Source of the DNA: Parvibaculaceae bacterium PLY_AMNH_Bact1
Lineage (GTDB): Bacteria; Pseudomonadota; Alphaproteobacteria; Parvibaculales; Parvibaculaceae
Assembly (NCBI GenBank): GCA_032881465.1
Contig: CP126168.1
Coordinates: forward strand, 2,604,001 to 2,668,000
Reading direction: 5' to 3'
DNA length: 64,000 nt
Positions 36,407 through 56,081 of the stretch are shown one piece after another (positions within the stretch are counted from its first letter, which is position 1; each line of letters starts with the position of its first letter). The position numbers were made by a program, and so were the translations under genes. The notes beneath the pieces are model-generated. The model did no database searches and had not been told where the DNA came from. It saw only the letters and a program-made list of their open reading frames with translations.

Positions 36407-36693
36407 ATCTCTCCTCCAAATCGACCACCAACAGGACCGTAAAACGCCCCGCTCGCCTGGGCAACAGGTGACGAACACCTGATTCCGCTAATTCCGCCCA
36501 ATCTGGGGGCAAATCGACCCCGAAAAACGCCCTTTTTCGCTTGAGCGCGCTGCGTCAAACCAACGCATTTGCAAGAAATATTCGTGAGTCTCTCTTACAA
36601 GTTACAAAAAATATCAAATACTTTCAATGAGTTAGGGGAAAAACCCACTTACTTAGTTGTATGTAGTTTATTTTGCATCGCACCATTTCAATG
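36407..36693. other. Gene-free spacer upstream of the small RNA
   Basis: This stretch holds the promoter side of the DUF2189 gene and A/T-rich DNA toward 36590-36690. I see no open frame with a ribosome site, no tRNA and no repeat. Confidence 0.5.
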
Positions 36694-36722
36694 TTGACAA
36701 CTTGTCATATTCGGCAGATAAA
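36694..36722 (+). promoter_or_regulatory. Sigma-70-type promoter of the predicted small RNA
   Basis: TTGACA (36694-36699) is followed after exactly 17 bases by GATAAA (36717-36722), four of six matches to TATAAT. Predicted start of transcription is near 36729. Confidence 0.65.
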
Positions 36723-36728
36723 GGTTCT

Positions 36729-36815
36729 CAAGAGCCCGGCCTTACCTCCTCCCAAGGCCATAGGCTTGATAGGCCGCTTGCACACTCCTCCTCCCCCCGT
36801 GCGAGCGGCCTTTTT
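36729..36815 (+). ncRNA. Predicted small RNA with two anti-Shine-Dalgarno loops (alpha-r14/NfeR1-like)
   Basis: About 87 nt between a near-consensus promoter and a T-run terminator, with no coding frame. Hairpin 1: GGCCTT (36738-36743) and AAGGCC (36754-36759) enclose a loop containing CCTCCTCCC (36745-36753). Hairpin 2: a 13-bp stem (36771-36783 with 36799-36811, one wobble) whose loop again contains CCTCCTCCC (36787-36795), followed by five Ts. A loop CCUCCUCCC can pair with ribosome-binding sites. Alphaproteobacterial sRNA families with this motif exist (rhizobial alpha-r14/NfeR1; other C-rich-loop sRNAs in Rhodobacter and Caulobacter). Membership is inferred from the loops and architecture. 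It likely represses translation of several mRNAs. Confidence 0.75.
36771..36815 (+). terminator. Rho-independent terminator of the small RNA
   Basis: A 13-bp GC-rich stem with a 15-base C-rich loop (36784-36798) is followed by TTTTT (36811-36815). No protein gene on this strand lies upstream within 1 kb, so the terminator belongs to the small RNA. Its loop doubles as the second anti-Shine-Dalgarno motif. Confidence 0.85.
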
Positions 36816-36877: not shown

Positions 36878-37306
36878 TTATTCTGCCGCGGGCGGCGCTG
36901 CCGGTACAGAAGACCCACCATCAGCCGTCAGCCGAACGCGTCCAAGCTCAACTCCGCGCTTGGTGTCGATAATGATCACCTCAAGCACGCCTTCGTTGGT
37001 GGTCACGATGGAGAGGCGGTCCTCAATAAAGGTTGTCCGCACAACAGCGGTGCCCTCTGCGACGGGTACATCAACGGGGCCGAATTGACCCCGCACTGGT
37101 GTTGTCGCCGGATCGGGGCTTGAGCTCAGCCGATAGATAATCGTGCCAAACACAACAATGAGCCCGATCACGATCAGCACACCCATCACGATGACAGATG
37201 CGAACAAGACAGGCCGTTCTTTCACCGCCTCCATTTGAGTGACAGCCCCCGTTTCACTGTCGGAAGGTGTTTCCATGGCACCGTTGGGTTCGCTATTGTC
37301 CGGCAT
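36878..37306 (-). CDS. Single-pass membrane protein of unknown function
   Basis: About 142 residues: a Ser/Glu-rich cytoplasmic N-terminus (1-28), one membrane helix (VLFASVIVMGVLIVIGLIVV), and a small beta-rich domain (GTAVVRTTFIEDRLSIVTTN, GVLEVIIIDTKRGVELGRVR) with a Pro/Ala tail. I recognise no named family beyond a general alphaproteobacterial conserved hypothetical. It is divergent from rluD, and the most likely start codons overlap by two bases on opposite strands, so at least one start is probably further inside. GTG 37348 gives a longer form. Confidence 0.6.
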   Translation of the reverse strand: MPDNSEPNGAMETPSDSETGAVTQMEAVKERPVLFASVIVMGVLIVIGLIVVFGTIIYRLSSSPDPATTPVRGQFGPVDVPVAEGTAVVRTTFIEDRLSIVTTNEGVLEVIIIDTKRGVELGRVRLTADGGSSVPAAPPAAE

Positions 37307-38354
37307 GAATTTATCAACCTTGAAAGTCACGGGTGGCACACGCCACACCGTGTGTGTCAGTGAAGAGGATGCAGGAGCGCGGCTTGACCGCTATCTCGCA
37401 ACCGCACTGGAAGCCCTGGACCCCGCCCCCAGCCGATCGCGTATTCGCACGTTGATCGAAGAAGGACATGTGACGCGAGGCACACCCAATGAGGAGCGGA
37501 CGATAGGTGAGGTCGCCTATCGGGTCAAACAGGACGAGACCTATAACCTCACCCTGCCAACGCCTGGGCCCGCCACACCGCAGCCCGAAGACATCCCCCT
37601 GACCATCGTGCATGAAGACGCTCAGCTGATTGTCATCGACAAACCCGCGGGGCTTGTCGTCCATCCAGCACCCGGATCGCCAGACGGCACGCTGGTGAAC
37701 GCTCTTCTCGCCTATTGTGGGCCGGACTTCACCGGCATCGGGGGCGAACTTCGCCCTGGCATCGTACACAGGCTGGATAAAGAAACGAGCGGCCTCATGG
37801 TGATCGCAAAAACCGAACCGGCCCTGAAGAACCTGCAAGAGCAGTTCGCCATCCATGGCCGCGACGGGCGATTGGAACGCGCCTACACCGCCTTCGTCTG
37901 GGGCAAGCCCCATCCGAGCAAAGGCACGGTAAATGCGCCTCTGGCCCGAAGCCGCCACAATCGCCTCAAAATCACCGTCACCCGCTCTGTAGAGGCCCAG
38001 GGAGCACGGGAAGCCATAACGCACTACAAAGTGGCTCAGAGTTTTGGGGCGCCGGAACCCCTGGTAAGCCAGGTGATTTGCCATCTGGAAACCGGCCGTA
38101 CCCACCAGATCAGGGTCCACATGACCCATCTAGGGCATCCGATCCTGGGCGACCCCGTTTACGGCACAGCCCATAAGAACCGCTCTGTGAAGCTCTCAGA
38201 GGGCGCAAGAAGCGCCCTTGATAGGCTGGGCCGCCAGGCGCTCCACGCCCACCTTTTGGGTTTTGAGCACCCGGAAACCGGGGAAAAACTGCGCTTTGAG
38301 AACCCACTCCCACCGGAAATGGCAGATCTCCTTGCTGCCTTAGAATCCCTATAA
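37305..38354 (+). CDS. rluD: 23S rRNA pseudouridine synthase, RluD/RluA family
   Basis: About 349 residues: an S4-like RNA-binding part (DAGARLDRYLATAL to LIEEGHVTRG) and the catalytic domain with the active Asp in GIVHRLDKETSGLMVIAKT, plus QVICHLETGRTHQIRVHM and HPILGDPVYG. RluD modifies helix 69 of 23S rRNA. The start is uncertain: ATG 37305 overlaps the opposite gene's start and has no ribosome site; GTG 37350 is an alternative. rluD upstream of rpoH is a common alphaproteobacterial arrangement. Confidence 0.92.
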   Translation: MNLSTLKVTGGTRHTVCVSEEDAGARLDRYLATALEALDPAPSRSRIRTLIEEGHVTRGTPNEERTIGEVAYRVKQDETYNLTLPTPGPATPQPEDIPLTIVHEDAQLIVIDKPAGLVVHPAPGSPDGTLVNALLAYCGPDFTGIGGELRPGIVHRLDKETSGLMVIAKTEPALKNLQEQFAIHGRDGRLERAYTAFVWGKPHPSKGTVNAPLARSRHNRLKITVTRSVEAQGAREAITHYKVAQSFGAPEPLVSQVICHLETGRTHQIRVHMTHLGHPILGDPVYGTAHKNRSVKLSEGARSALDRLGRQALHAHLLGFEHPETGEKLRFENPLPPEMADLLAALESL

Positions 38355-38446: not shown

Positions 38447-39379
38447 ATGGCGACTACACCAACAAACAGCACTTCCCGCATGCCCGCCGTTACGCCGGAG
38501 CAATCGCTGTCACGCTACCTGCAGGAAATCCGCAAATTTCCAATGCTGGAGCCACAGGAAGAATACATGCTGGCAAAGCGCTTCAAAGAGCATGAAGACC
38601 CCGACGCGGCTGAGAAGATGGTCACCAGCCATCTCCGCCTCGTCGCAAAAATCGCCATGGGCTATCGCGGCTACGGCCTGCCAACCGGGGAAGTGATTTC
38701 TGAAGGCAATGTGGGTCTCATGCAGGCGGTGAAACGCTTCGAACCCGAGAAAGGCTTTCGCCTCGCAACCTACGCCATGTGGTGGATCCGGGCTGCCATA
38801 CAGGAATACATCCTGCGCTCCTGGTCGCTCGTAAAAATGGGCACGACGGCTGCACAAAAGAAACTCTTCTTCAATCTGCGCAAAGTGAAGGGTCAGCTAC
38901 AAGCCTTCGAAGAAGGGGACTTGAAGCCGGAAAACCTCTCCACGATCGCAACGCGCTTAGGCGTGACGGAGAAAGAAGTGACGGATATGAACCGTCGCAT
39001 GTCGGGCCCGGACAATTCACTCAATGCCCCGATCCGCAATGCAGAAGCGGACGGTGGCGAATGGCAGGACTGGCTGGTTGATGAGAGCATCGACCAGGAA
39101 GTCGAGCTTGGTGAAAAAGAAGAACTCAATGTCCGCCGCGACATGTTGCACGCAGCGATGCAGTCCCTCAACGAACGTGAGATGCACATCCTCACCGAGC
39201 GCCGCTTGAAAGATAATCCGGCAACGCTCGAGGAGCTAAGTCAGGAATATGACATTAGCCGCGAACGCGTCCGCCAGATTGAAGTGCGCGCGTTTGAAAA
39301 ACTGCAAAAAGCCATGCGCGATGCGGTGAGCGAACAAGCAGCTGAACGCCGCGCAGCGCGGGACGAGCTCCTGAACTAG
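38447..39379 (+). CDS. rpoH: Heat-shock sigma factor RpoH (sigma-32)
   Basis: 310 residues with sigma-70 regions 2 to 4. Region 2 contains HLRLVAKIAMGYRGYGLP and RLATYAMWWIRAAIQEYILR. The RpoH box, diagnostic for sigma-32, is TAAQKKLFFNLRKVKG. Region 4 has LEELSQEYDISRERVRQIEV. It directs transcription of chaperone and protease genes after heat shock. Ribosome site GAAGGGGGTCATC precedes ATG 38447. The 92-bp spacer after rluD has a C-run followed by CTATAT that may be a promoter. A strong terminator follows. Confidence 0.97.
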   Translation: MATTPTNSTSRMPAVTPEQSLSRYLQEIRKFPMLEPQEEYMLAKRFKEHEDPDAAEKMVTSHLRLVAKIAMGYRGYGLPTGEVISEGNVGLMQAVKRFEPEKGFRLATYAMWWIRAAIQEYILRSWSLVKMGTTAAQKKLFFNLRKVKGQLQAFEEGDLKPENLSTIATRLGVTEKEVTDMNRRMSGPDNSLNAPIRNAEADGGEWQDWLVDESIDQEVELGEKEELNVRRDMLHAAMQSLNEREMHILTERRLKDNPATLEELSQEYDISRERVRQIEVRAFEKLQKAMRDAVSEQAAERRAARDELLN

Positions 39380-47703: not shown

Positions 47704-47742
47704 TCAGTCGAGCGAAAGACCGCAGCTTTAGACTAAACAGCT

Positions 47743-47853
47743 ACTCCGTCCCTTCGCCGGCATGACCCGGATCAGGTTCTAAGGGTCTAGCCAACTGGCC
47801 ATCTCAGCCCGCTCCAAAACACATGTAAGCGGACACCCCTCGGATGAGCCGGA
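47743..47853 (-). promoter_or_regulatory. TPP riboswitch (THI element) of thiC
   Basis: Read on the minus strand, the leader holds all conserved parts: CGAGGGGTGTCC at the 5' side, GCTGAGATGGCC (the CUGAGA motif) and GAACCTGATCCGGGTCATGC, then GCGAAGGGA. These are the pyrimidine- and pyrophosphate-sensing helices of the TPP aptamer. It lies about 65 bases before the thiC start, so ligand binding probably hides the ribosome site or stops transcription. Confidence 0.96.
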
Positions 47854-56023: not shown

Positions 56024-56078
56024 TATCTGTATCTATCCTCACAGATAGTCGCCTCTCGGTGGGGAGAGGTGGCCCACC
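56024..56078 (-). ncRNA. Structured serC leader (serC-motif candidate)
   Basis: The roughly 55-nt leader contains, in transcript order, GGTGGG (56078-56073), CCTCTC (56069-56064), CCCACC (56063-56058) and GAGAGG (56057-56052). GGTGGG can pair with CCCACC, or CCTCTC with GAGAGG, but not easily both. A further hairpin CTATC-TGTGAG-GATAG lies close to the start codon and includes the ribosome site. A conserved serC RNA motif upstream of serC in Alphaproteobacteria has been described. Whether this is that motif is inferred from position and structure. Confidence 0.65.
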
Positions 56079-56081
56079 GCC

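Follow-up and report, generated by a model that had tools for sequence, protein, structure and literature searches.

A predicted two-hairpin small RNA conserved 5' of rluD in the Parvibaculaceae, and its candidate TetR-type operator

Described RNAs with C-rich loops and the locus compared with them

sRNAs carrying CCUCCUCCC are already known in rhizobia and in Rhodobacter. The alpha-r14/NfeR1 RNA of Sinorhizobium meliloti is described as a stand-alone gene with a sigma-70-type promoter of its own, at which sites for the regulators LsrB and NtrC are conserved; each of its three hairpins, whose stems vary, has CCUCCUCCC in an unpaired loop (PMC10746234). The same account reports that NfeR1 silences ntrB through this motif and that repression at a start region was demonstrated with reporters (PMC10746234). 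The CcsR1-4/RSs0680a 'cuckoo' RNAs of Rhodobacter sphaeroides, with a promoter of the RpoHI/RpoHII type, form two hairpins, each with CCUCCUCCC (PMC3927594); according to the descriptions, RNase E releases the four copies from the transcript of ccaF1, a DUF1127 gene (PMC10253847, PMC8307010), and the RNAs are associated with that gene at the CIN1 locus (PMC10253847). In Caulobacter crescentus, the four siblings SisA-D carry an anti-Shine-Dalgarno 10-mer that acts 5' of start codons, within an Hfq-associated network in which the sponge CrfA inactivates them (PMC12559287); no TetR link was found in that description. Another Caulobacter RNA, GsrN, uses an exposed cytosine-rich 5' loop as its target seed, which pairs with the G-rich katG leader and raises KatG, and is described as lying close to the general stress locus under a Sigma-EcfG promoter (PMC5869019).

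No prior report of Parvibaculum sRNAs was found in the open-access literature. 6C RNA (RF01066), known from Actinobacteria, also has two C-rich hairpin loops. Its model matches the present locus at 27.6 bits (E 0.12), under the gathering score of 47, and in its consensus the loops consist of C runs, not CCUCCUCCC.

The locus lies in a 64,000-nt stretch of DNA, called the window throughout, from Parvibaculaceae bacterium PLY_AMNH_Bact1. A first-pass annotation of the window had proposed an sRNA gene here, naming a TTGACA-N17-GATAAA promoter, two hairpins whose loops contain CCTCCTCCC, and a T-run. All of these elements were found: the spacing between the promoter boxes, read directly from the window, is 17 nt, and the CCTCCTCCC copies fall at 36745-36753 (loop 1) and 36787-36795 (loop 2). 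The features are as follows.

36674..36682, plus strand: upstream box TGCATCGCA (family consensus TGC[AG]N[CT]GCA), about 20 nt 5' of the -35 box
36694..36699, plus strand: -35 box TTGACA, kept in 31/31 aligned family promoters
36695..36707, no strand assigned: palindrome TGACA-ACT-TGTCA, a predicted TetR-family operator overlapping the -35 box; TGTCA in 29/31 promoters, GTCA in 31/31
36717..36722, plus strand: -10 box GATAAA (in the family mostly GATAWW); GATA in 28/31 promoters
36729..36815, plus strand: predicted sRNA of about 87 nt, its 5' end placed from the -10 box and its 3' end from the T-run
36732..36767, plus strand: hairpin 1, with loop ACCUCCUCCC at 36744-36753, drawn from fold, alignment and covariation
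36732-36736/36763-36767, plus strand: outer stem of hairpin 1, outside the structure counted for covariation
36738-36743/36754-36759, plus strand: inner stem of hairpin 1
36771..36815, plus strand: hairpin 2, terminator-like, with stem 36771-36783/36799-36811 and loop ACUCCUCCUCCCCCC at 36784-36798
36811-36815, plus strand: U-run (TTTTT) after hairpin 2
37305..38354, plus strand: RluD-type pseudouridine synthase gene (Pfam PF00849), a positional landmark
38447..39379, plus strand: rpoH-like sigma factor gene (Pfam sigma-70 regions), a positional landmark

The rluD-type and rpoH-type gene names rest partly on our recognition of the sequences, and the product of 38447..39379 is presumably RpoH on that ground. 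The spacer, given earlier as 470 bp without a reading frame, measures 471 bp from the start of a DUF2189 gene (36406) to the stop of a DUF6476-like gene (36878), but mechanically called open reading frames do span it. Both flanking genes are on the minus strand, and the DUF6476 match is weak (19.6 bits against a cut-off of 24).

The first-pass annotation had likened this RNA to alpha-r14/NfeR1 and had pointed to Rfam models of the alpha-r14 and suhB types. The likeness holds in style, in that CCUCCUCCC sits in unpaired loops on variable stems of a stand-alone gene with its own promoter; the ar14 model (RF02344), however, scores only 35.7 bits when 501 bases are searched (E 4.4e-5), whereas its gathering score is 58.8. 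CcsR1 (RF02791) gives the best E-value among the Rfam families (33.5 bits, E 1.8e-6, gathering score 65.3), and no suhB-type RNA is among the five matches at E of at most 5. At gathering scores, neither ar14 nor CcsR1 appears in the window-wide Rfam list. Across the family, the CcsR1 gathering score is reached in 0/40 genomes; 16/40 match at E 0.01, many of them weakly and without both motifs. The DUF1127 domain (PF06568) was found in 0/40 family genomes at E 0.001, a search in which E. coli was positive among 14 control genomes. The RNA would work like these RNAs but, with sub-gathering scores and no DUF1127 gene found, is not filed in either Rfam family.

Further differences separate the locus from each described system. 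Unlike NfeR1, it has two hairpins and not three, a promoter of the form TTGACA-N17-GATAWW where CTTAGAC-N17-CTATAT is given for the NfeR1 homologues (PMC10746234), and a predicted TetR-type palindrome where LsrB and NtrC sites are reported. It shares the two hairpins with the CcsR RNAs as described, but occurs as one copy with its own promoter, whose conserved boxes look sigma-70-like as judged from sequence. SisA-D, set side by side with it from their description, are alike in the anti-Shine-Dalgarno motif and unlike in their siblings, sponge and network; GsrN, as described, is alike in its exposed C-rich loop and unlike in its promoter, its surroundings and the activation of katG. What is known already would thus be the loop chemistry, and what appears new is the locus and its predicted controller.

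Conservation of the sRNA gene, its promoter and its place

The predicted RNA folds far more stably than expected from its composition: positions 36727-36815 have a minimum free energy of -39.6 kcal/mol (z -5.81), which none of 200 shuffled sequences equalled. The number of motifs carries no such weight. Two CCTCCTCCC copies per 64 kb are within chance, since at least two occurred in 15 of 100 shuffled windows, and the motif count was accordingly dropped as evidence for an sRNA. A plain two-motif pattern is present in 36/40 family genomes, and a reversed control is about equally common, so loci were kept only if they folded. A simple promoter and terminator scanner reported neither the sRNA promoter nor its terminator in the window, because its -10 rule demands a final T, which GATAAA lacks, and its loop rule allows at most 8 nt, fewer than the loop of hairpin 2 has; the Parvibaculum counterpart promoter, TTGACA-N17-GATATT, does appear in its output. 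What lifts the predicted sRNA above chance is its conservation across genomes.

Searched by blastn, the locus is found in 7/7 genomes of the window's genus, its own genome included, and in 0/30 other family genomes and 0/24 other genomes of the class. Covariance models reach further. A model built from the genus (R1) found the locus in just 16/40 family genomes at E 1, and together with folded pattern matches placed it in all five genera; it was replaced by a family model (R2), which matches at E 5.1e-17 or better in 36/40. The order-level genome set consists of the same 40 genomes. Every genome with a completeness of 90% or more and no more than 5% contamination has a strong R2 match (27/27), and the four family genomes that lack one are 68-83% complete, three of them with weak matches and one with none. 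Five of the 36 R2-positive genomes lie outside the alignment behind the model. Five genomes found later (G063, G031, G019, G017 and G021) were left out of the sRNA alignment A3 (31 loci, 29 distinct rows) and of the promoter alignment A4 (31 family promoters). In its own genome the sRNA gives the single R2 match at E 0.1, and only one adjacent pair occurs among the 18 CCTCCTCCC sites there.

The alignment shows two covarying hairpins with CCUCCUCCC in their predicted loops. Stem cells are paired in 98.8% of cases, and 12 of the 17 stem pairs carry double compensatory changes, on both sides, among the 29 distinct sequences. The covariation score is 0.500, as compared to 0.214 for shuffled alignments and at most 0.112 with slid partners, a control that flatters the result, since the alignment being scored also supplied the structure. 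By its count of further pair types, the alignment did not exceed its shuffles (26 against 24.6; 131 of 500 shuffles reached 26). In loop 1, CCTCCTCCC is invariant (31/31 rows); loop 2 is C-rich and variable in length. The conserved signal is thus covariation in the stems, with indels falling in the loops and the linker. Covariance of both stems in related genomes, proposed earlier as a check, is therefore seen, and loss of the stems or C-rich loops in relatives was looked for and did not turn up. Conservation, covariation and fold together support the earlier call of an sRNA gene, about 87 nt long and preceded by a sigma-70-like promoter of its own.

The 3' end differs among genera. At least four T follow hairpin 2 in 11/31 rows, all from genera g1, g3 and g4; no such run follows it in the rows of g5 (Parvibaculum) and g2, two of these rows ending at contig ends. 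In g5, ACCCTCCC-type sequence stands where the window has its T-run, and the scanner found no terminator in the Parvibaculum-type genome G015 (L081 7500-8200).

The place of the gene is conserved along with the gene and its promoter. In 10/10 loci checked, covering all five genera, the predicted sRNA lies 5' of rluD on the same strand, and rpoH was seen in nine of them, the tenth ending at a contig end. DUF2189 adjoins it only in genera g1, g3 and g4 among these ten. When the whole collection was scanned for the operator together with CCTCCTCCC, 26 of 32 matches were alphaproteobacterial, mostly Parvibaculum, Tepidicaulis and Rhodobiaceae, and included Tepidicaulis marinus MA2, Parvibaculaceae and alpha proteobacterium Mf 1.05b.01; four of the 26 are labelled only Alphaproteobacteria bacterium or Hyphomicrobiales. 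The other six (e.g. Cryobacterium, Azoarcus) are unrelated and were treated as chance.

A class-wide covariance search matched 26/385 genomes at E 0.01, five in the family and 21 outside it. No rluD was found within about 1.5 kb on either side of the 16 non-family loci examined, out of 22 matched; near one of the 16 (L115) there is a weak 53-residue RpoH match. A genome of another alphaproteobacterial family (G057, L099, minus strand, about 1380-1625) contains an array in which a hairpin-like unit with a CCTCCTCCC loop occurs four times; this is clearly a multi-copy relative, and it stands at another genomic place.

Two further copies were noted within the family. Genome G001, which is 6% contaminated, has another C-rich locus with two hairpins, under a different promoter (C1:11351-11431, L025/L053); it possibly comes from a contaminant and was excluded from the alignments. 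In G005 the sRNA region stands on two contigs (C9 and C5) that are identical over 3086 bases, through either duplication or assembly redundancy, and the second contig was excluded from alignments A2 and A3.

The palindrome over the -35 box and the TetR gene

The first-pass annotation had read the promoter boxes correctly but had overlooked a conserved palindrome and its TetR partner. TGACA-N3-TGTCA recurs over the -35 box among the 31 aligned promoters; as TTGACA is expected at any strong promoter, the information is carried only by the TGTCA half. The upstream box starts 19-21 nt 5' of the -35 box in 30/30 promoters with sequence there, and is a candidate site for a second regulator.

In the window's own genome the operator TTGACANNNTGTCA has three copies: at the sRNA, at an acyl-CoA dehydrogenase gene and at a TetR-family gene. 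In the 40 family genomes the pattern gives 104 raw matches as compared to six for its reversed form, and merging leaves 93 distinct sites, of which 35 are at the sRNA, 39 at the TetR gene and 19 elsewhere. The operator is exact at the sRNA in 34 of the 36 sRNA-bearing genomes; the other two (G009 and G013) have one mismatch, CGTCA. It lies within 150 bp 5' of the aligned TetR start in 39/39 genomes with the gene (E 1e-25), the sole genome of the 40 in which the gene was not found being G063, which is 57% complete. In the 30 TetR loci compared (genera g1, g2, g4 and g5), the operator is exact and the flanking sequence divergent. The -35-box palindrome of the predicted sRNA thus also stands at the promoter of one TetR gene wherever that gene is found in the family.

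Such an arrangement, a palindrome at a gene's own promoter whose first half is TTGACA, is typical of TetR genes that repress themselves. A TetR_N domain is present in the TetR protein (PF00440, 52.7 bits), which reached no cut-off among the curated NCBIfam models. Because the exact site is common to the TetR gene and to the sRNA promoter, an autoregulated TetR protein probably controls the sRNA through this predicted shared operator. Going by how TetR repressors commonly work, repression of both tetR and the sRNA is the most likely outcome.

Among the 19 sites elsewhere, five precede an acyl-CoA dehydrogenase gene (in 5/7 genomes of the window's genus), whose products are 96.7-98.5% identical to the protein of the window's own genome, and two, in two other genomes, precede genes for FMO-like flavoproteins. 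Ten of the remaining 12 were inspected and share no common theme, some of them lying inside long open frames. Because operator copies precede acyl-CoA dehydrogenase and FMO-like genes, the ligand of the TetR protein may be a lipid-type or acyl-CoA metabolite, a guess with few sites behind it. The counts cover exact sites that include TTGACA, and so take in no operator away from a -35 box and no TGACANNNTGTCA without the leading T or with one mismatch; the operator regulon may be larger than counted.

A GGAGGA within 70 nt after the site is present in 18/30 TetR loci, all 18 of them among the 21 loci of g5, and in 0/7 loci of the window's genus. Feedback of the sRNA on tetR across the family was rejected on this account. 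In Parvibaculum, where 18/21 loci have GGAGGA in the 5' region of tetR, the sRNA may feed back on that gene.

The surroundings of tetR were also recorded. A 257-aa protein without a Pfam match is encoded 3' of tetR (L227 674-1444, minus strand), and its gene adjoins tetR in 28/30 loci, the exceptions (L235 and L246) being short loci. The gene for peroxide stress protein YaaA (L180 1532-2320, minus strand) lies directly 5' of tetR in 8/30 loci, namely all seven from the window's genus plus L256. Judged by eye, the promoter spacing in L227 and L234 suggests that tetR may have a leaderless mRNA, beginning at the ATG or close to it.

Mode of action, targets and alternative explanations

As a whole, the proposal that 36729-36815 is a TetR-gated, stand-alone, trans-acting anti-Shine-Dalgarno sRNA is one we hold to be probable. 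The stretch would be a single-copy, trans-acting sRNA gene. A TetR protein would bind the palindrome over the -35 box and repress, or otherwise gate, its own gene and the sRNA; when its ligand is present, the sRNA would be made, and its C-rich loops would reduce the translation of several mRNAs by pairing with their G-rich ribosome-binding sites. Because the loops match the NfeR1/CcsR motif and form, ribosome-site blocking is our best guess by analogy. More tentatively, and with somewhat less than even confidence, the TetR sensor would govern a conserved core regulon throughout the family, made up of tetR itself and the sRNA, and would turn a metabolic signal, possibly related to acyl-CoA or a hydrophobic substrate, directly into broad translational braking, with feedback on tetR possible in Parvibaculum.

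No target stands out in the window's genome. The GGAGGAG that had been offered as a candidate site 5' of the DUF2189 gene is real (36411-36417, minus strand), yet nothing sets DUF2189 apart, and the proposed in-silico search with the loop sequence supported no target. Elsewhere in the genome there are 16 perfect complements of 9 nt, none of them at a convincing ribosome site. In four of them a start codon follows 3-15 nt 3' and opens a frame of 40 codons or more, and by eye, without annotation, these frames look short or internal to longer ones; the target list from these complements was rejected for this reason. Start regions in the window are not enriched, with a match of at least 6 nt in 3/57 as compared to 7/171 internal controls; the starts used were mechanical first starts, which partly miss true sites such as that of DUF2189. 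Since the loop matches any strong Shine-Dalgarno sequence, target lists from a single genome are of little value.

The annotation's claim that ribosome-site blocking is the only sensible explanation was too strong, as activation by GsrN and sponging by CrfA are known. A real sRNA that mainly activates or stabilises mRNAs, or is held by a sponge, would follow the precedents of GsrN with katG (PMC5869019) and of CrfA with SisA-D (PMC12559287) and would suit the lack of enrichment at ribosome sites, both among the 16 complements and among the window's starts. We consider this unlikely, since the loop is the exact CCUCCUCCC of NfeR1, described as a reporter-proven repressor. How the gene is switched admits another reading, in which a different regulator, or a promoter feature, explains the TGTCA of the sRNA promoter and tetR is merely co-regulated. 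The second conserved box, TGC-N3-GCA, suggests another factor at the sRNA promoter, and the TetR operator is itself a prediction from sequence; against this stand the palindrome's presence 5' of the TetR gene in all 39 genomes, in the usual autorepression layout, and the sRNA being the only other place where it recurs across genera. This too seems improbable, at about the level of the activating or sponge-held sRNA.

The locus might instead be a true CcsR or alpha-r14 orthologue whose sequence and neighbourhood have simply diverged, to which the sub-threshold RF02791 and RF02344 matches, the same loop motif and the similarly variable stems would be suited. All 40 genomes, however, stay under the CcsR1 gathering score and the window under that of ar14, the promoter differs, no DUF1127 gene was found in the 40 genomes, and rluD is near none of the outside-family loci examined; orthology is thus rather unlikely, though it keeps some weight. 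Open frames of 71 and 99 codons that span the stretch, and the terminator-like form of hairpin 2, could be taken to argue for something other than an sRNA gene: a short protein-coding gene, a leader or attenuator of a gene further 3', or a chance fold. The next gene lies on the opposite strand with rluD beyond it, and the covariation, the indels in loops and linker and the conserved promoter all fit an RNA gene, which makes the lack of any sRNA gene very improbable.

If the TetR-gated sRNA is the right reading, a CCUCCUCCC sRNA is linked here to a single transcription-factor gene through a short, exactly matching DNA site, in a constant chromosomal position and without a DUF1127 partner of the CcsR type. 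The switch of such RNAs would thereby become a directly testable question in a family that includes Parvibaculum.

Two other RNA elements in the window, both on the minus strand, score above their gathering thresholds: a TPP riboswitch at 47732-47850 (77.2 bits) and a serC leader RNA at 56028-56079 (67.7 bits).
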